Shown one piece after another: positions 3,118 through 61,574 of a stretch of DNA of 62,112 bases (position 1 is the first letter of the stretch; every line of letters starts with the position of its first letter). The stretch comes from Sulfurimonas sp. (GTDB taxonomy: Bacteria; Campylobacterota; Campylobacteria; Campylobacterales; Sulfurimonadaceae). The DNA lies in NCBI GenBank assembly GCA_028684815.1, contig JAQUFE010000010.1, forward strand, positions 1 through 62,112, read 5' to 3'. The notes below the pieces were generated by a model. That model searched no databases. It saw nothing but the letters and a program-made list of their open reading frames with translations, and had not been told where the DNA came from. A program made the position numbers and the translations under genes.

Positions 3118-5046
3118 ATGAAAAAAGATATAAAATTATCATTAATCCTTGTCGCTCTTATGAGTTCACTCCAAGCCGAGACTTCAGATGCTATAGTCTT
3201 AAGTCCCCTTAGTGTTACTTCAACTGCCATAAAAACAGATGAGCTAAAATCTACAGATGCAGTAGAAATCTACACACAAGAAGATATACAAAAGGCTCAC
3301 TCTCAAAATATTTATGAGTTTTTAAACTCTCAAACATCTGTCACAGCAACTCCGAGTTATGGAAATCCTTTTACTCAAAAACTAGATATGAGAGGTTTTG
3401 GTAACAGTGGCTATCAAAATATAGTAGTAACTATAAATGGTCGGAAGTTAAACAACATAGATAGCGTACCTCAGCTGCTCTCCTCTATCTCGCCATCATC
3501 TGTTAGCCGTATAGAGATTATAAAATCTAGCGGAATAGTTTTAGGTGGAGATGGTGCAAATGCAGGCGTTATAAATATCATTACAAAACAAAACAACGAT
3601 AAAGAGGTCTCTTTTTATCTAGGTACTTACGGCGTGGCAGATGCTTCCTTTTATGTTGGTCATAAAGATGAGAAACTATCCGTCTCAGCAAGTGGTGAAG
3701 CACAAAAAAGCAATGGCATAAGAGAGATAGACAGCGATGGAAATAGAGATAAAAATAAATTCTCAACAGGTAGTCTAAGCCTTGCTTATCAGGTAACCGA
3801 CGAGCTAGAGTTAAGCCTTGGTGCTGCATTTACAAGAACAGATGTTCTCTACGCTGGGGCAATGACAAAAGATGAGTATAAAGATAGTCCTAGGCAAAGA
3901 GGTTTTGGAAGTGTATCTCACCAACAATATGATAGTAACGCTATAAACGCTGGCATAAAGTACTTTATAAATGACAAATTTTCACTAAATGCAAGTGTTT
4001 CACAGGAGAAAAAGAAGTCCATTTATCTGCCTCCTTCTTGGCCTTATGAAGCCAACTATGAGTATAACTCGCTCTTGGCATCTATGGATTACGCTAGTGA
4101 TAATTTATCTCTTAAAGTAGGTGTTGATGGGTTTGATGGAGATAGAAAAGGCTCAGATAACACAACTAGTAAAAATAACAAAGCTGCTTTTATTATGGCT
4201 AACTATAGAGTAGGAAACTCAAGTTTTAAAGCAGGTTATAGACTTGAAAATGCAGCTTATATATATGATAGCTATATGACTCATTTAAAACAAGATGACA
4301 ATCTTTATGGTGCTGAGCTTGGATATAACTATCTCATTAACAAAGAGAGCTCACTCTTTGTAAGCTACGCTCACTCTTTTCAATCACCAGATATAGATAG
4401 TTTTTTTGCAGCAACACCCCCTTCATGGGCGATAAATTTTAATGGCTTTATAAAACCCTCAAAGGTTGATACTTACTCTCTTGGTTATAACAATATAATT
4501 AAGCACAATAAATTTAAAATCTCGCTCTACTACGCTGATTTAAAAGATGAGATTTATATGCAACCGATTACTTTTAAAAACACAAATATAGATAAGTCGT
4601 ATAAATATGGAGTTGATTTGTATGACAAGTATATTATTAGCCCAAAGTTTAGCATAGCACTAAACTACAACTATGTTCAAGCCATCATTGACAAAGAAAG
4701 AGAGGGTATGAGTGATTATTCAGGAAACAAACTCCCTGGTGTATCAAACCACAACATAAAAGCTACGCTAGGCTACACTCCAAACAAGGCTACAACTATC
4801 TACTTAACTCAGAGTTACCGCTCAAAAGCTTACGCCGCAGATGATTTTAACAACAACTTCTCTCAAAAGCAAGATGCCTACATGAGTACAGATATCTCTA
4901 TCACTTATGCCAAAGAGTCTTGGGAAGTTTTTGCTAAAATAAACAATCTCTTTAACCAGAAAAATGGTTTGTGGATATATGATAATGCCATCTACCCTGT
5001 AGATTTTACAACAACAGCTTTGGCTGGATTTAAGTTAAAATATTAG
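3118..5046 (+). CDS. TonB-dependent outer-membrane receptor
   Basis: Outer-membrane active-transport receptor for a metal chelate or corrinoid. The start used here (MKKDIKLSLILVALMSSLQA) gives a proper signal peptide cleaved near residue 20 and has an AAGGAA ribosome site; a TTG 24 bases upstream (3094) would only add eight residues. An N-terminal plug domain follows (about 35-150: LSPLSVTSTAIKTDEL, DMRGFGNSGYQNIVVTINGR, RIEIIKSSG). The remainder is an aromatic-rich beta barrel whose last strand ends in a TonB-receptor-like AGFKLKY. Length 642 aa is typical. It heads a binding protein-ATPase-permease series, so it is very likely the outer gate of that importer. Confidence 0.92.
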   Translation: MKKDIKLSLILVALMSSLQAETSDAIVLSPLSVTSTAIKTDELKSTDAVEIYTQEDIQKAHSQNIYEFLNSQTSVTATPSYGNPFTQKLDMRGFGNSGYQNIVVTINGRKLNNIDSVPQLLSSISPSSVSRIEIIKSSGIVLGGDGANAGVINIITKQNNDKEVSFYLGTYGVADASFYVGHKDEKLSVSASGEAQKSNGIREIDSDGNRDKNKFSTGSLSLAYQVTDELELSLGAAFTRTDVLYAGAMTKDEYKDSPRQRGFGSVSHQQYDSNAINAGIKYFINDKFSLNASVSQEKKKSIYLPPSWPYEANYEYNSLLASMDYASDNLSLKVGVDGFDGDRKGSDNTTSKNNKAAFIMANYRVGNSSFKAGYRLENAAYIYDSYMTHLKQDDNLYGAELGYNYLINKESSLFVSYAHSFQSPDIDSFFAATPPSWAINFNGFIKPSKVDTYSLGYNNIIKHNKFKISLYYADLKDEIYMQPITFKNTNIDKSYKYGVDLYDKYIISPKFSIALNYNYVQAIIDKEREGMSDYSGNKLPGVSNHNIKATLGYTPNKATTIYLTQSYRSKAYAADDFNNNFSQKQDAYMSTDISITYAKESWEVFAKINNLFNQKNGLWIYDNAIYPVDFTTTALAGFKLKY

Positions 5047-5067
5047 ACATTTTAAAAGGAGAGACTC

Positions 5068-5895
5068 ATCAAAGTTTTTATATTAATCTTACTTTTTATC
5101 TTTAGCCTTGATGCAAAAGAGAGACTTGTCTCTCTTAGTCCTTCCATCACAGAGATAATCTATGCACTTCAAAAAGGCGATGAGCTTGTTGGAACTTCTA
5201 GCTACTCACTTTATCCAAAAGAGGCACAAAAACTCCATATTATTGGAGACTACTCAAGCCCGCATATAGAGAAGATTTTAGAATTAAATCCTAGCCTCGT
5301 CATAGGAGAAGATTTCAACCAGGAGACACAAGAGAAGCTAAAACACTTTGGTATAACAACACTAACATTAAGATTAAAAACTATAACAGATATAAAAAAC
5401 TCCATAGAAAAATTAGCTAAAGCCATAGGCTCGAAAGAGGCCAAAAAACTCATACAAAGTATAGATGATGCCATAAAAGATGCCCATAAAAACTCCCATT
5501 CACACAGTGTTATGATAGTTTACGGACTAAAAGAGGATTTAAGTTCAGCCACTTATGTAGCAGGAAGAGATATCTTTTTTGATGATATTATAAAGCTATG
5601 TGCTAACACTAACGCTTACACAGCTAACTCAAACAAACAGCCAGTTCTTAGTTATGAAAATATCATAGCACTTAATCCAGATCAGATTATCATCCTACAC
5701 TCTCATGCGACAGAATCAGGAGTAGATGCAAAAAAAGCTCTACAAGCGTGGTATAGACTCCCAACAAATGCATCAAGAAACAAAAATATTAGCATTGTAG
5801 ATGAGGACTATCTCCATATCCCATCGCATCGTATTGCGCTTACTATTAAAAAACTCTCAGATGAGATGCGAAGCTATAAGATGAGCCACAGATGA
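5068..5895 (+). CDS. Periplasmic binding protein (BtuF/FhuD-like), apparent ATC start
   Basis: Substrate-binding subunit of the importer. Translation from 5068 gives 275 aa: a short signal peptide (KVFILILLFIFSLDA), then the cobalamin/siderophore binding-protein opening RLVSLSPSITEIIYALQKG, a middle helix region, and a C-terminal lobe (YENIIALNPDQIIIL). There is no ATG, GTG or TTG between an in-frame TAA (5053-5055) and the mature protein. The only position correctly spaced from a strong AAAAGGAG site is ATC at 5068, followed by AAAGTT. Either ATC is the initiator or an ATG has mutated; the first internal ATG (5512) would delete half of the protein. The stop overlaps the ATPase start (ATGA). 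Confidence 0.85.
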   Translation: MKVFILILLFIFSLDAKERLVSLSPSITEIIYALQKGDELVGTSSYSLYPKEAQKLHIIGDYSSPHIEKILELNPSLVIGEDFNQETQEKLKHFGITTLTLRLKTITDIKNSIEKLAKAIGSKEAKKLIQSIDDAIKDAHKNSHSHSVMIVYGLKEDLSSATYVAGRDIFFDDIIKLCANTNAYTANSNKQPVLSYENIIALNPDQIIILHSHATESGVDAKKALQAWYRLPTNASRNKNISIVDEDYLHIPSHRIALTIKKLSDEMRSYKMSHR

Positions 5896-6623
5896 TAAAA
5901 CTAGACTCGCTTAAGATAAGTTACCAAGATAGAGTCATACTAGAAGATATCTCACTATCTATCACTGGGCATCTAAATATCTTAGGAGCAAATGGTAGTG
6001 GAAAAAGTACACTTGCAAAGGCTATTTGTGGGCTTATCCAGTATGATGGAGCCATCAGCATTGATGGAAAAAACATTAAAGAACTTCCTCTCAAACAAAG
6101 AGCGAAACTACTCACTTATATACCTACCAAACTAGAAGTTTATGATGAGTTTATTAGTGTAGAAGAGTTTGTGCTTCTGGGTAGATTTGCCTATAAAGAT
6201 AGTTTTTTTGACTACTCTAGCAATGATAAAAAGATAGCCAAAAACACCCTAGAGTTTTTAAATATCTCACACCTCGCATCTCACACTCTAAGCTCACTTA
6301 GTTCTGGCGAAGCACAGCTTATCTCTTTGGCATCTGCACTTGTTGCGCAGAGCAAAATCATTATCCTTGATGAGCCAACTGCAAACCTCGACCCACACAA
6401 CGCAAAAGTGATAGCAAAGCATATAAAAGGCTTAAAAGAGTATCATCAAATCATCTTAATCACGCATGATTTAGAACTTGCTTCTTTCATTAACTCGCCA
6501 ACGCTCTTTTTAAAAAACGAAGCTGCCTCTTACTATGAAAAATATGATGAGTTTTATAATGAGGCGAAACTAGAAGAGCTTTACGGTGCCACTTTTGATG
6601 GCTTGGCGGTACGATATGATTAG
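5892..6623 (+). CDS. ABC transporter ATPase (BtuD/FecE/FhuC-like)
   Basis: Cytoplasmic ATPase driving the importer. Visible motifs are Walker A GANGSGKST (32-40), signature LSSGEAQ (about 135-141), Walker B IIILDEPT with D160/E161, and the H-loop ITHD. Length 243 aa is normal. Its ATG overlaps the binding-protein stop by four bases and its 3' end overlaps the permease start by eight, so the three are translationally coupled. Confidence 0.93.
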   Translation: MIKLDSLKISYQDRVILEDISLSITGHLNILGANGSGKSTLAKAICGLIQYDGAISIDGKNIKELPLKQRAKLLTYIPTKLEVYDEFISVEEFVLLGRFAYKDSFFDYSSNDKKIAKNTLEFLNISHLASHTLSSLSSGEAQLISLASALVAQSKIIILDEPTANLDPHNAKVIAKHIKGLKEYHQIILITHDLELASFINSPTLFLKNEAASYYEKYDEFYNEAKLEELYGATFDGLAVRYD

Positions 6624-7581
6624 GTTTTTAATCTGGATTTTTTTGCTTTTTATACTTCTAGCATCTGGATTTATCGGCGCTATCTATCTTGATGTTGGGG
6701 AGGTCTTTACAAACGGTACTCTCGCACACTCTATCTTTTTTGAGCTAAGACTTCCACGTGTTATCTTTGCTTTTACAGCTGGAGCCATACTCGCTCTTTG
6801 TGGACTTTTATACCAATCTCTCTTTAGAAACGCTCTTATGACACCCTACACTCTTGGAGTCTCAAGTGGTGCAATTTTAGGAGCTGGAATTGCGATTAAG
6901 CTTGGTCTTGGAAGTTTAGCTTTTGGCATAGCTTCCATCAGTCTCTTTGGTTTTTTCGGAGCCATGCTCAGTGTGCTTCTGCTTCTCTACTTAACACGAT
7001 TTTTAAAGCACTCTCACTTTGAGTCACTTCTACTCCTTGGTATCGCCCTATCGCTCTTTTACACATCTGCACTCATGATAATCTTCTACCTTGGAAGTGC
7101 AATGCAAAACGATATGCTTCTTCGCTTTAGCATGGGTTCTCTCTCTATCATAGGCTGGACTCATCCCATAACTCTTAGCATCATAGCTCTACTTCTCTTT
7201 ATCACTATCTTTCTTTACAGACATGAGTTGCAACTCTTTAGCATCTCAGATGAGGGCGCAAAACTTAGAGGAGTTGATACCAAAAAGGTTACACTTTTAC
7301 TTCTTTTAGTCTCATCTTTTGCTATTGGTGTTCTTGTGAGTGTGAGTGGGCCTATAGGCTTTGTGGGGCTTATAGTTCCTCATATAGTTGCAAAACTACA
7401 CCGTGAACCTGTAAATAAACGCATAACAAAAACAGCCCTCTTTGGAGGTTTTTTCTTAGTTTTTTGTGACACTATAACAAGAGCCATCCCCACTCAAAGC
7501 GAGCTACCTATTGGCATCATTACAGCACTAATTGGCGGACCATTTTTTATATATCTCATTATTAGTAGAAGTAAGAGTTAG
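6616..7581 (+). CDS. FecCD/BtuC-family ABC permease
   Basis: Inner-membrane channel subunit of the FecCD family with about nine to ten hydrophobic helices. Family marks are RLPRVIFAFTAGAILALCGL near the N-terminus and SGPIGFVGLIVPHIVAKL in the ATPase-contact region. The start chosen is ATG 6616 (MIRFLIWIF), which opens directly on the first helix; a GTG at 6586 would add ten residues. The gene overlaps the ATPase by 8 nt and converges on the next gene with a 4-bp overlap. Substrate (cobalamin, heme or ferric siderophore) cannot be fixed from sequence; the binding protein looks most like corrinoid binders. Confidence 0.92.
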   Translation: MIRFLIWIFLLFILLASGFIGAIYLDVGEVFTNGTLAHSIFFELRLPRVIFAFTAGAILALCGLLYQSLFRNALMTPYTLGVSSGAILGAGIAIKLGLGSLAFGIASISLFGFFGAMLSVLLLLYLTRFLKHSHFESLLLLGIALSLFYTSALMIIFYLGSAMQNDMLLRFSMGSLSIIGWTHPITLSIIALLLFITIFLYRHELQLFSISDEGAKLRGVDTKKVTLLLLLVSSFAIGVLVSVSGPIGFVGLIVPHIVAKLHREPVNKRITKTALFGGFFLVFCDTITRAIPTQSELPIGIITALIGGPFFIYLIISRSKS

Positions 7582-33481: not shown

Positions 33482-33660
33482 GCCTTGCGCTGCAAGGCTA
33501 GCTTTAGAGATCTTAGCGATCCCAAGCGAATGAACTGTAAAATAACTATAGTTTTATCCAGGAAGAGGGACTTCATTCTCGTAAAAAAGGTGAGGCTAAA
33601 GCCTCACTTCCGAGTTATTTCACAGTCTCGAAGAAAAGAGACTTTGTTCCTTTTACGAAC
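33482..33660. other. Structured non-coding element with nested hairpins
   Basis: No convincing gene. A perfect stem GCCTTGC-gct-GCAAGGC (33482-33498) is followed by a nested set: GTGAGGC-taaa-GCCTCAC (33591-33608) and AGTCTC-gaagaaaa-GAGACT (33625-33644), both enclosed by TTCTCGTAAAAAAGG (about 33577) pairing with CCTTTTACGAA (to about 33660). It could be an RNA, a leader of the ZnuA gene read on the minus strand, or a palindromic mobile remnant. Confidence 0.5.
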
Positions 33661-35609: not shown

Positions 35610-36485
35610 TTATACTCTCTCTCTAAGTAGAATAATAGTAGCAAAAAGCGAGATTACAATCCCTACAAAAACACTCCAACTAATAGATACATCTTTGTAA
35701 AAATAAGACATAACAGCAACTATAGCTGGGCTAAGATAGAGATATGCCATAAGCTTTTTAGAACCAAGCAGTGCTGCACTTTTTTGGTACAAAAAGAGCG
35801 TTAAGATAGTACTTGCGAGCGCTAAGTAAAGTACATAGTAAAAGAGTTCGCCCTCTATTTTATGCCACTCAAGAGGGATATTTAAAACTTGCATCGATAA
35901 AAACATCGCAAGAGATCCGCCTAAAAGTGTACTAAAGACAAAGACTAAAGGTTTGTCACCTTTTCTATAAAGAACCTTTAAAAATATAGAGTAGAGCGAC
36001 ATAGCGACTGAAGCTATTAAAAATATTGCATCTCCATAGTTAAGTGAAAAACTCAAAAGTAGATTTATGTCTGCCCTAAAGACGACAATGGTAGTACCGA
36101 GCATTGCAACAAGATAGACTAAGAGTTGCTTTTTGCTTATCCTCTCTTTAAAGAAAAATATACATAAGATTGCAGTAATAAAGGGAATCAAAGTGTAGAG
36201 AGTACTTGTGTTTAAAACAGTAGTACTCTCAAGCGCTTTAAACATTCCAATGAAGTATAGGGCGTAAAAAATACCAACAACAGAGCCTCGCCAAAAGGTA
36301 GAAGGAAATTTTTGACGATACTCTTTTTTTACAAAAATCGCAGATAAAACAATAAGTGCAATAAAAAATCTATACAAGGTGATAGAGATAGAGTCTATAA
36401 CTCCAGTGAGTTCAGCTGATACTAAAAAAGAACTAGCGATTATAATCGTGGCGATAGAGAGATAGATGTGAGCGCGTAAAATGAT
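35610..36485 (-). CDS. EamA/DMT-family transporter, apparent ATC start
   Basis: Ten-helix drug/metabolite transporter with two EamA repeats. Reading from ATC at 36485 gives 291 aa, the normal family length, opening with ILRAHIYLSIATIIIASSFL, the expected first helix. An in-frame TAA lies four codons upstream and no ATG/GTG/TTG occurs before a TTG at 36377, which would delete the first helix. AAAAAGG sits 4 bases before the ATC; the adjacent ATT could also be the initiator. Substrate unknown. Confidence 0.78.
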   Translation of the reverse strand: MILRAHIYLSIATIIIASSFLVSAELTGVIDSISITLYRFFIALIVLSAIFVKKEYRQKFPSTFWRGSVVGIFYALYFIGMFKALESTTVLNTSTLYTLIPFITAILCIFFFKERISKKQLLVYLVAMLGTTIVVFRADINLLLSFSLNYGDAIFLIASVAMSLYSIFLKVLYRKGDKPLVFVFSTLLGGSLAMFLSMQVLNIPLEWHKIEGELFYYVLYLALASTILTLFLYQKSAALLGSKKLMAYLYLSPAIVAVMSYFYKDVSISWSVFVGIVISLFATIILLRERV

Positions 36486-36532
36486 GAAACCTTTTTAAAA
36501 AAAGAGATTGTATCATATCTCTTTGATAAAGT

Positions 36533-59775: not shown

Positions 59776-59874
59776 TTAGAAGTAATCTGCTATTTTCCAG
59801 TGGTTTTTATATGCAACATAGGCTATCATTGTTGCTATAATAATTGTAACACCTAATAATATTCCACTACTCAT
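59776..59874 (-). CDS. Cassette B: single-helix peptide with HWK tail
   Basis: 32 aa (MSSGILLGVTIIIATMIAYV then AYKNHWKIADYF). Overlaps the two-helix gene by 8 nt (ATGAGTAG), same organisation as cassette A. Confidence 0.75.
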   Translation of the reverse strand: MSSGILLGVTIIIATMIAYVAYKNHWKIADYF

Positions 59875-60109
59875 TTTCTAACTCCTCAATCTGTCTTTTT
59901 GCTTTATTAATGGAAAAATAGTTGAACATTAAACCTACTACTAATATTCCAAATAAAAACATTAGAAAGTACTTCTCAAATCCTATCTGATTTAAGCCAT
60001 AACTACCAATAGCTCCAGCAGAAGCTAACAGTACAACCATTTTCTTATAGATGATGTCACTCTTCTTAGCAATCATATCGGCTTTGTCTTTTCTCTCTTG
60101 TAATGTCAT
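59867..60109 (-). CDS. Cassette B: two-helix small membrane protein
   Basis: 80 aa: MTLQERKDKADMIAKKSDII, two divergent hydrophobic helices, tail INKAKRQIEELENE. About the same layout as cassette A but little identity after residue 23. Confidence 0.78.
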   Translation of the reverse strand: MTLQERKDKADMIAKKSDIIYKKMVVLLASAGAIGSYGLNQIGFEKYFLMFLFGILVVGLMFNYFSINKAKRQIEELENE

Positions 60110-60115
60110 GTAGAG

Positions 60116-60121
60116 ATTATA
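60116..60121 (-). promoter_or_regulatory. Cassette B promoter, predicted leaderless
   Basis: TTGGTATAAT on the minus strand with CTCTAC and then ATG; six bases separate the -10 box from the start codon. Confidence 0.75.
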
Positions 60122-60199
60122 CCAAAAATAGGAAAAAGAATAGAAAGAAGAAATAGATTCAAGATAAAACTTGCATTATGTTAAGTAGAAAAGAAGAGT

Positions 60200-60231
60200 A
60201 AAAAAAAGCCCTACTTATGGAAAGTAGGACT
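60200..60231 (-). terminator. Terminator upstream of cassette B
   Basis: Minus strand: AGTCCTACTT-tccat-AAGTAGGGCT with TTTTTTT after it; it ends transcription from cassette C and isolates promoter B. Confidence 0.85.
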
Positions 60232-60407
60232 GAAAGAGTGTCAAAGTGTGTCAAACTTAGCTAAGGTAAAACTAAGTTTTGTTCCTGTTTTGGTGCCTGA
60301 CACCCTTTGTTGAAAAGAGTGTCAAAGTGTGTCAGACTTAGTTAAGGTAAAACTAAGTTTTGTTCCTATTTTGGTGCCTGACACCCATTGTTCTGACACC
60401 CATTGTT
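60232..60407 (-). repeat. Family-2 repeats, two copies plus a half
   Basis: Two near-identical 75-bp units (GGTGCCTGACACC at about 60292 and 60373 on the plus strand), each with the AACTTAG/CTAAGTT stem, and a trailing CTGACACCCATTG. All in the same orientation relative to the cassettes. Confidence 0.9.
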
Positions 60408-60409
60408 TA

Positions 60410-60514
60410 TTAAAAAATACCACCTATTTTCCAATGATTTTTATTTGCTATATAGCCAATAATCCATGCTGCTACAAAGCCTATAGCTAATAATAAAAGT
60501 CCAACATCTTCCAT
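60410..60514 (-). CDS. Cassette C: single-helix peptide with HWK tail
   Basis: 34 aa (MEDVGLLLLAIGFVAAWIIG, then NKNHWKIGGIF). Starts one base after the two-helix stop. The ADYF tail is changed to GGIF. Confidence 0.72.
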   Translation of the reverse strand: MEDVGLLLLAIGFVAAWIIGYIANKNHWKIGGIF

Positions 60515-60515
60515 T

Positions 60516-60758
60516 TTAAAACTCCTCCATATTTTTTTTTAGTCTGTTTAGCTCATTGTAATTATATGCAACACCTACAGACACAATAATAAAAATTATT
60601 CCAAGTGCATAACCAAATATATTATTTTGCTCTATAAACTTTACTGCATATGCACCTATACCACCATCAATAGCTAAAAGAGCTATTAATTTTTTATTGA
60701 CAATATCTGCAATTTTAGAAAGTTTATCTATAGTATCTTTTCGTTCTTGTAATGTCAT
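60516..60758 (-). CDS. Cassette C: two-helix small membrane protein
   Basis: 80 aa: MTLQERKDTIDKLSKIADIV then two helices; LLAIDGGIGAYAV is shared in pattern with cassette D. The most divergent N-terminus of the set. Confidence 0.76.
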   Translation of the reverse strand: MTLQERKDTIDKLSKIADIVNKKLIALLAIDGGIGAYAVKFIEQNNIFGYALGIIFIIVSVGVAYNYNELNRLKKNMEEF

Positions 60759-60764
60759 GTAGAG

Positions 60765-60770
60765 ATTATA
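60765..60770 (-). promoter_or_regulatory. Cassette C promoter, predicted leaderless
   Basis: TATAAT-CTCTAC-ATG on the minus strand, as in cassette B. Confidence 0.75.
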
Positions 60771-60840
60771 CCAAAAATAGAAAGAAGAAATAGATTCAAG
60801 ATAATCTGCATTAGGTTAGGTTAAGTAGAAAAGAAGAGTA

Positions 60841-60871
60841 AAAAAAAGCCCTACTTATGGAAAGTAGGACT
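60841..60871 (-). terminator. Terminator upstream of cassette C
   Basis: Same hairpin as before cassette B, AGTCCTACTT/AAGTAGGGCT, followed by T7 on the minus strand. Confidence 0.85.
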
Positions 60872-61130
60872 AAAAGAGTGTCAAAGTGTGTCAGACTTAG
60901 TTAAGGTAAAACTAAGTTTTGTTCCTGTTTTGGTGCCTGACACCCTTTGTATGGAGAGTAGTGAGGCTGGGTTGGAGAGTGTCAGAGAGTGTCAGGTCTT
61001 AGTTAAGGTAAAACTAAGTTTTATTCCCACTTTGGTGCCTGACACCCATTGTTGACACCCCTTTTTCACCCCTTTTCACCAGTTAAGGTGAAACTAAGTT
61101 TTTGCACAAAACGGTGCCTGACACCCTTTT
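60872..61130 (-). repeat. Family-2 repeats, three copies
   Basis: Units ending in GGTGCCTGACACC at about 60932, 61034 and 61114. Between the first two lies GTAGTGAGGCTGGGTT, the reverse complement of a stretch at about 41647-41662 after the S-layer-like gene, so the shared unit is larger than the palindromes. The third copy is diverged (GTTTTTGCACAAAACGGTGC). Confidence 0.88.
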
Positions 61131-61132
61131 TT

Positions 61133-61237
61133 TTAAATCCAGTCAGCAAGCTTCCAATGTCTGTTAACAGCTAAAAAACCTACAATTGCAGCAAACACAA
61201 ATCCTAATGGTATTATTAAAATTCCTAGTTCATTCAT
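61133..61237 (-). CDS. Cassette D: single-helix peptide with HWK tail
   Basis: 34 aa (MNELGILIIPLGFVFAAIVG, then VNRHWKLADWI). Overlaps the two-helix gene by 8 nt (ATGAATGA). Confidence 0.74.
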   Translation of the reverse strand: MNELGILIIPLGFVFAAIVGFLAVNRHWKLADWI

Positions 61238-61481
61238 TAGATATCCTTTCTAAGTTTTTTGTCCATTGATTCATTTTTACATAAGTAACGAAAATTGCTA
61301 TCGAGACAAATATAAAAATGATAGCAAATACATATCCAACAATATTGGAGTCTGCTATATACTTCAACGCATATGTACCAAATGCTCCATCAATTGCTAA
61401 TAATATAATTAATTTTTTATAAAGCGAATCAATCAGTTTAGCAATTATATCGGCTTTGTCTTTTCTCTCTTGTAATGTCAT
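61230..61481 (-). CDS. Cassette D: two-helix small membrane protein
   Basis: 83 aa: MTLQERKDKADIIAKLIDSL, helices about 24-42 and 50-70, tail KMNQWTKNLERISNE. Confidence 0.78.
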   Translation of the reverse strand: MTLQERKDKADIIAKLIDSLYKKLIILLAIDGAFGTYALKYIADSNIVGYVFAIIFIFVSIAIFVTYVKMNQWTKNLERISNE

Positions 61482-61487
61482 AACTAG

Positions 61488-61493
61488 ATTATA
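61488..61493 (-). promoter_or_regulatory. Cassette D promoter, predicted leaderless
   Basis: TATAAT-CTAGTT-ATG on the minus strand, identical to cassette A. Confidence 0.75.
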
Positions 61494-61574
61494 CCAAAAA
61501 TAGGAAAAAGAATAGAAAGAAGAAATAGATTCAAGATAATCTGCATTAGGTTAGGTTAAGTAGATAAGAAGAGT

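Follow-up and report, generated by a model that had tools for sequence, protein, structure and literature searches.

Does a gene whose coding frame is intact, and which carries ATC where its start codon should be, begin at that codon, or has it lost its start? The question is raised by a btuF-like gene in a 62,112-nucleotide stretch of a Sulfurimonas contig (the window), which belongs to a 2.27 Mb draft genome of 101 contigs and 96% completeness (G000). The initial annotation had described an intact gene behind a strong ribosome-binding site and had considered weak translation, a recent start-loss mutation or a sequencing error as the reason for the unusual codon.

An Intact btuF-Like Gene with ATC at the Start Position

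The features of the locus, all on the + strand, were as follows:

3118-7581, +, operon of TonB-dependent receptor, BtuF-like protein, ABC ATPase and FecCD permease (profile matches)
3118..5046, +, TonB-dependent receptor (BtuB-like), 5' neighbour of btuF (profile matches)
5053..5055, +, in-frame TAA, 15 bases before the ATC, excluding starts further upstream
5054..5061, +, Shine-Dalgarno (SD) sequence AAAAGGAG, duplex with ACCUCCUUU of -8.9 kcal/mol
5068..5070, +, ATC, putative initiation codon (from the sequence and an upstream copy in the sister species G010)
5068..5115, +, region coding for the signal peptide IKVFILILLFIFSLDA (Sec-type by eye, from the translation)
5068..5895, +, BtuF-like vitamin B12 (corrinoid) ABC importer binding protein (domain, structure match and gene company)
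5892..6623, +, ABC ATPase (BtuD-like), its ATG overlapping the btuF stop (ATGA)
6616..7581, +, FecCD-type permease (BtuC-like; profile matches)

Direct reading of positions 5068-5070 bore out the ATC, and the frame that begins there was open for 275 codons up to the TGA at 5893-5895, as the initial annotation had it. The spacer between AAAAGGAG and the ATC comprised six bases, AGACTC, in agreement with the good spacing claimed. The first in-frame ATG/GTG/TTG occurred at position 5512, codon 149, so that the earlier statement that no other start follows the in-frame TAA also held; initiation at codon 149 would cost the signal peptide and over half of the protein. Counted from the upstream stop, the first standard start of btuF had codon index 152, by far the latest among the window's 56 ORFs of 120 aa or more, followed by indices 40, 39 and 26. 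An AUH gene was defined by an ATH codon at SD spacing with no in-frame ATG/GTG/TTG alternative, and btuF showed this combination. The absence of a normal start codon was confirmed, and the gene most likely begins at the ATC, judging from the arrangement of these signals.

The start of the BtuB-like gene was placed at the methionine of MKKDIKL, where its G010 orthologue has ATG, whereas the mechanical ORF ran from 3094 (TTG). The TAG that ends this gene, at 5044-5046, precedes the ATC by 21 bases. Two ideas about the ATC were rejected. Masking of the start by mRNA structure found no support, since in the predicted fold of a 90-base mRNA segment the ATC was unpaired (0.97) and the SD sequence about half so (0.52). 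Avoidance or miscalling of TCATGA had been considered because both start-less genes of the window would read TCATGA if they had ATG; 18 occurrences were observed in the window versus 19.6 expected.

The protein matched PF01497 (Peripla_BP_2) with 93.5 bits, above the gathering score of 27.5, and its best solved-structure match was the vitamin B12-binding protein 5ysc (E 5.3e-21). Orthologues aligned right to the N-terminus. These three observations indicate that the frame is not a chance one. The best NCBIfam match was the BtuF equivalog NF002894, although its 98.8 bits remained under the cut-off of 234, and the label "BtuF-like" was chosen for this reason. The protein resembles BtuF and other PF01497 binding proteins (5ysc, 1n2z) in sequence family, signal peptide and gene company, and differs from them in that its gene lacks a canonical start codon and its score falls below the NCBIfam BtuF cut-off. 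A distant paralogue with 26% identity was seen elsewhere in the same genome.

The ATPase and permease frames were both intact, and in the window the ATPase follows btuF directly with no cob genes between them. In G010 the order is btuB-btuF-cobT-cobU-cobS-cobC-btuD-btuC, and because of these cob neighbours B12 was taken as the predicted ligand; a role of the BtuF-like protein in B12/corrinoid uptake is likely on the grounds of sequence and gene order. The cobT, cobU and cobS genes of the window genome were located outside the btu operon, on contig C42. No match to a B12 riboswitch or another Rfam family was obtained in the window at gathering scores.

Start Codons of btuF Orthologues in the Genus

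A search of 135 genomes of the genus gave btuF matches in 72, of which 68 distinct loci from 67 genomes were examined; G007, G014, G016, G086 and G121 were left out, with three duplicate records and one paralogue among the omitted loci. A standard start was present in 66 of the 68 orthologues, either at the column of the window start or up to four codons upstream. The two exceptions were the window, with ATC, and locus L008 of the single-contig genome G133, which has ATA in the same column and an ATG seven codons downstream as a possible alternative start. Two main designs were recognized among the orthologues, one starting at the ATC column and the other two codons upstream, typically with M-S-I-K, where the ATC column corresponds to codon 3.

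The initial annotation had named an alternative start in relatives, with a conserved upstream frame, as evidence that would speak against ATC. Such a start does exist in many of them (ATG, GTG or TTG two codons upstream), but it is unavailable in the window because the codons there are AGA-CTC, directly after the SD sequence.

In the btuF tree the window was placed beside G010 (support 100/99); both fall in a group of nine members (98/95), to which G133 also belongs. The losses of a standard start in the window and in G133 are, as read from the tree, separate events. For the ATPase gene, a standard start was found in 54 of the 68 loci by a scan for standard starts only, which is uninformative on exceptions; among the other 14 loci, eight have cobT next.

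An Upstream Copy of the ATC Block in the Sister Species

In G010, AAAAGGAGAGGCTCATCAAAGCTCTTATATTAA lies after the TonB gene and before the ATG of btuF; it corresponds to the SD-CTC-ATC block of the window. The SD-CTC-ATC-AAAG block AAAAGGAGAGGCTCATCAAAG is common to both, with an identity of 20/21 and 30/33 bases that fades to 35/47. A pattern search allowing up to three mismatches gave matches in at least 120 of the 135 genomes, and among the matches listed, which run up to G066, G010 alone had zero mismatches. Two REP-like palindromes come after the block in G010, and beyond them lies another 5' end, which has ATG; the AUH start is thus present there as an upstream copy only, with the second, ATG start behind it. 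The signal peptide region at this ATG resembled that of locus L007 (37/48 bases) more than that of the window (26/48), and L007 also has REP-like units at the corresponding place. The G010 block opens a 33-codon frame that runs through the insert and ends in ATGA at the new start, to which it could be translationally coupled, as this overlap suggests. The distance from the TonB stop to the ATC in G010 is 14 bases, and the two are not in one frame.

The REP-like palindromic unit GGAAGTGRGRCTTYAGYCYC was matched 36 times in G010, 38 times in G106 and six times in the window genome, and the reversed control gave no match. In three species a unit was located between btuB and btuF (L006 2321-2371, L007 1432-1461 and L008 near 2428). 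The strict unit occurred once in the window, at 33592-33611 on the minus strand (about 33.6 kb), and none was present at the btuB-btuF joint.

Along the mature protein, codons 1-105 were 85% identical between the window (L001) and G010 (L006), and the rest 72-74%. Due to this shift the btuF genes are regarded as mosaics, a pattern that suggests recombination within the gene. From these data we infer as the simplest history that the ATC block served as the btuF start in the common ancestor, and that G010 gained an insert which brought in a foreign 5' end and its ATG.

Selection on the Protein and on the Block

In the shared segment (mature codons 1-105), dN/dS between the window and G010 was 0.12. 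With two outgroups, the changes assigned to the window branch were eight synonymous and no nonsynonymous ones in this segment, and 17.5 and 10.5, respectively, in the remaining codons; with one outgroup the corresponding counts were 13 and 3, and 28.2 and 17.8. The btuF protein is under purifying selection in the window.

Whether the block is conserved beyond neutrality depends, on these alignments, on the yardstick. The dS of the shared segment (0.588) gave a neutral identity of 0.59, against which the P values were 2.6e-4 for 20/21, 6.3e-5 for 30/33 and 0.0019 for 22/25 (without the SD sequence), for a stretch that was chosen after being seen. At fourfold sites of the same segment, 27/35 were identical (0.77); measured by this, the P values were 0.031, 0.038 and 0.14, respectively, and the 47-base stretch (35/47) showed no excess. 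The fourfold-site yardstick weakens the conservation argument for the block, and selection on the protein is the better evidence. If the ATC is ancestral, btuF has been kept as a protein while having no standard start.

A Second Start-Less Gene of the Window and Genome Surveys

Another gene of the window showed the same peculiarity:

35610-36494 (35610..36482 from the ATT), -, EamA-like transporter, second start-less window gene, with ATT 36482-36480 (or ATC 36485-36483) after AAAAAGG

Its 5' end reads AAAAAGG-TTC-ATC-ATT-TTA. At E 1e-40 the gene was found in three of the 135 genomes, and in none of them does the N-terminus begin with a standard start. The codons there are ATC-ATT, ATT-ATT and GTC-ATT, of which the second, ATT, lies at six-base spacing and is shared by all three. 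Among the 36 window ORFs with matches in a 147-kb contig of G010, btuF and the EamA-like gene were the clear start-less cases. Four other flagged window ORFs comprised one gene overlap and three small paralogous ORFs. At 59867-61550 on the minus strand, three paralogous ORFs of about 100 aa were observed in which conserved sequence precedes the first standard start (codons 19-23).

A survey of 564 kb of the window genome covered 479 ORFs of at least 110 aa, of which 25 were flagged for a first standard start at least 24 codons in. The domain or the orthologue begins before the first standard start in six of the 25, namely btuF (ATC), the EamA-like gene (ATT or ATC), the gene of an Lnb_N-domain protein (ATA or ATC), and three with ATA, which are cobT and the genes of an outer-membrane efflux protein and an S24-like protein; the other 19 were judged by eye to be non-coding upstream. 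The same late-start filter gave two domain-backed cases among six flagged ORFs on the G010 contig. Applied to 400 kb of G008, it gave one of nine (tex), besides a broken-looking transporter fragment. For E. coli K-12 (300 kb), checking positions against the annotation revealed upstream coding sequence in 2 of the 36 ORFs flagged; one is prfB, which is joined across a frameshift, and the other is the pseudogene arpB. Fisher's test of 6/25 against E. coli gave 0.003 (with 0/36) or 0.044 (with 2/36). The filter undercounts, since infC and pcnB of E. coli escaped it although they lie within the 300 kb.

The cobT gene (L104:6465-7523, minus strand, on contig C42 of the window genome) has ATA where G010 has ATG. 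Around 28433-30652 of contig C74 of this genome, ORFs of repeated NCRIGSLE, LPIRQFT and FLSYLFGSL peptides were noticed, such as a repeat array (CRISPR-like) would give.

Recurrent Putative AUH Starts in tex and the Lnb_N-Domain Gene

Matches to tex were obtained in 84 of the 135 genomes; 30 loci were fetched and 27 parsed (L142:4-1425; L186-L215). The start column held ATT in 16 loci, ATG in 11 and nothing else. Nine of the 16 ATT loci, G008 among them, have no upstream in-frame ATG/GTG/TTG, in most of the nine because the stop TAG overlaps the SD sequence (e.g., TAGGA-AAAAAT-ATT). In the remaining seven, a GTG in the same frame precedes the start column by 5 or 12 codons.

For the Lnb_N-domain gene (PF13387), 40 loci were parsed (L156-L185, L220, L222-L229 and L233). 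Thirty came from the genus search, which matched 77 of the 135 genomes, and ten from the 30 of a class search, picked so that no locus was repeated and distant genera stayed out. In 37 of the 40, no standard start was present at the signal peptide, at least 32 codons before a conserved W motif. In 29 loci an AT-codon followed an SD-like sequence exactly 36 codons before the W motif. This SD-like sequence was mostly TAGGA with 6-7 bases after it, and the stop TAG often overlapped it. The AT-codon column contained 25 ATT, 10 ATC, 4 ATA and 1 ATG; its purity arises by construction, as the script took the first AT-codon after the SD-like sequence, which does not apply to the fixed position.

Beyond the genus, 18 of 30 loci of the Lnb_N-domain gene were parsed; nine have a standard start at 30-45 codons and nine lack one. 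Within the family, two other genera (G246 and G143) resembled Sulfurimonas and a third (G317 and G407) has TTG or ATG at this place. A standard start was present in each of the six loci parsed from other families. On this comparative evidence, tex and the Lnb_N-domain gene appear to settle the general point about AUH starts better than btuF does.

Alternative Explanations

The origin of the ATC could also be sought in a deletion. In this account the ancestor of the window and G010 had copy A (the block, as a remnant), the REP-like insert and copy B with its ATG, and the window lineage recombined the two copies and lost the insert together with the ATG, leaving a start-less or badly started gene. 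Such an arrangement is what G010 shows today; REP-like units are numerous in G010 (36) and G106 (38), the btuF genes are mosaics, and with the fourfold yardstick copy A is marginally above neutral. The block could then be a remnant in both lineages. However, copy A is clearly above neutral with the dS yardstick, copies A and B look by eye too unlike for in-register recombination, and the window joint has no REP-like unit, so that we consider this course of events unlikely, though it is the strongest competitor. A dead or dying btuF, its binding function taken over by another protein, seems improbable: the missing standard start and the distant paralogue would fit, but 275 codons have stayed open, dN/dS to the sister is 0.12 with eight synonymous and no nonsynonymous changes on the window branch in the shared segment, and the ATPase and permease frames are intact. 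The idea of a recent start-loss mutation in the initial annotation did not hold up either, as G010 has the block, G133 has ATA and other genes start alike.

The same three observations count against an assembly or base-call error at a true ATG, which the initial annotation had left open and a draft of 101 contigs might invite; the ATC block recurs in G010, the ATA of G133 stands in a single-contig genome, and tex, the Lnb_N-domain gene and the EamA-like gene have similar starts across many genomes, so the chance of an error is very small. Readthrough from the TonB receptor gene into the btuF frame with no initiation at ATC deserves even less credit. In the window the TonB gene is in the btuF frame with just TAG 5044-5046 and TAA 5053-5055 between them, yet two stops would have to be passed in a stretch of twelve bases, a fusion product would have its signal peptide hidden behind a beta-barrel, the strong SD sequence would serve no purpose, and the frames of the TonB stop and the ATC differ in G010.

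Proposed Initiation at AUC and Known Systems

The account favoured here is that btuF is a working gene with a weak, IF3-sensitive AUC start that predates the split from G010 and belongs to a wider AUH set; we regard it as probable on the whole. The initiation at AUC, the weak expression, the control by IF3 and the order of events are deduced, and the steps would be the following. The strong SD sequence AAAAGGAG and its six-base spacer would put AUC in the ribosomal P site, where fMet-tRNA (anticodon CAU) would pair with A and U and tolerate the third-position mismatch, as it does at the AUU/AUC/AUA starts of infC and pcnB; the first residue of BtuF would be formyl-methionine. Initiation would be inefficient and IF3-sensitive, giving a low, IF3-tunable level of BtuF and, through the ATGA overlap, an ATPase level that is partly low and tunable too. 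The AUC state would be older than the split from G010, where the new ATG would have come with a REP-like insertion and the foreign 5' end that it carried, and btuF would be one of a genus set with AUH starts.

fMet-tRNA can initiate at AUH codons, though less efficiently, and IF3 acts against the complexes so formed; bacterial AUH starts are known from a handful of genes. Weak translation of btuF, which the initial annotation had proposed and tentatively linked to a need for little binding protein, is likely in view of the reporter values from S. aureus given below.

The infC gene starts with ATT in E. coli and ATC in Streptomyces, where infC (ATC) and sigR (GTC) use the non-canonical start for regulation (PMC5472188), pcnB starts with AUU, and AUU was also proposed for lepA of Bacillus licheniformis (PMC1780047). 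Like btuF, infC and pcnB have a third-position near-cognate start after an SD sequence, for which IF3 discrimination is expected, but they serve translation or RNA metabolism and not a nutrient importer. For S. aureus, AUU was reported for cvfC1 and AUA for ccpN, citZ and infC; AUU/AUA reporters reached about 10% of AUG in poor medium, and one gene came to as much as 30% when the medium was rich (PMC13009471). The non-canonical starts of cvfC1 and ccpN are described there as conserved and preceded by a strong SD sequence (PMC13009471); the S. aureus set involves a different phylum and different genes, and several Sulfurimonas cases have a short SD sequence only (TAGGA). The Streptomyces sigR gene has a non-canonical start, is the first gene of a coupled pair, is repressed by IF3 and sets the product ratio (PMC5472188). 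It differs from btuF in having GTC and in encoding part of a regulator pair, whereas btuF has ATC and encodes a transporter component whose coupling is deduced from the ATGA overlap only. Initiation profiling of C. jejuni listed ATG, TTG and GTG as annotated starts (PMC11955535).

The infC gene of the window genome seemingly starts with TTG: a TTG after an upstream stop was present in it and in all 12 parsed infC genes and was taken as the start. These 12, from other families of the class, were parsed by motif out of 30 fetched. IF3 of the window genome, considered as a possible cause of the AUH starts, showed 17 differences at positions where the 12 mostly agree, with no obvious loss, and nothing in the comparison with these 12 pointed to an altered fidelity.

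AUH initiation as a phenomenon is already known. Among the matches listed in the open-licence literature, no title concerned AUH starts in Sulfurimonas or Campylobacterota, and neither an importer gene with AUC nor recurrent AUH starts in one genus, with two families that keep them, were among them.

Implications for Sulfurimonas and Its Family

A broader reading is that AUU, AUC and AUA form a regular minor class of starts in Sulfurimonas and its family, used by about 1% of genes or more, some of them fixed for most of the genus, and making up a set that answers to IF3 or to growth. The Lnb_N-domain gene and, in the group around G008, tex would be the examples of fixed AUH starts. We hold this reading tentatively, its chances being somewhat short of even. 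If it is true, annotation limited to ATG, GTG and TTG would truncate or miss AUH genes, and the question is opened of how many N-termini have been misannotated by three-codon gene finders. An AUH-rich genus, in which two gene families keep such a start across many species, would be a natural system for finding out what purpose AUH starts serve, and would open the question of whether IF3 regulates a gene set through them.
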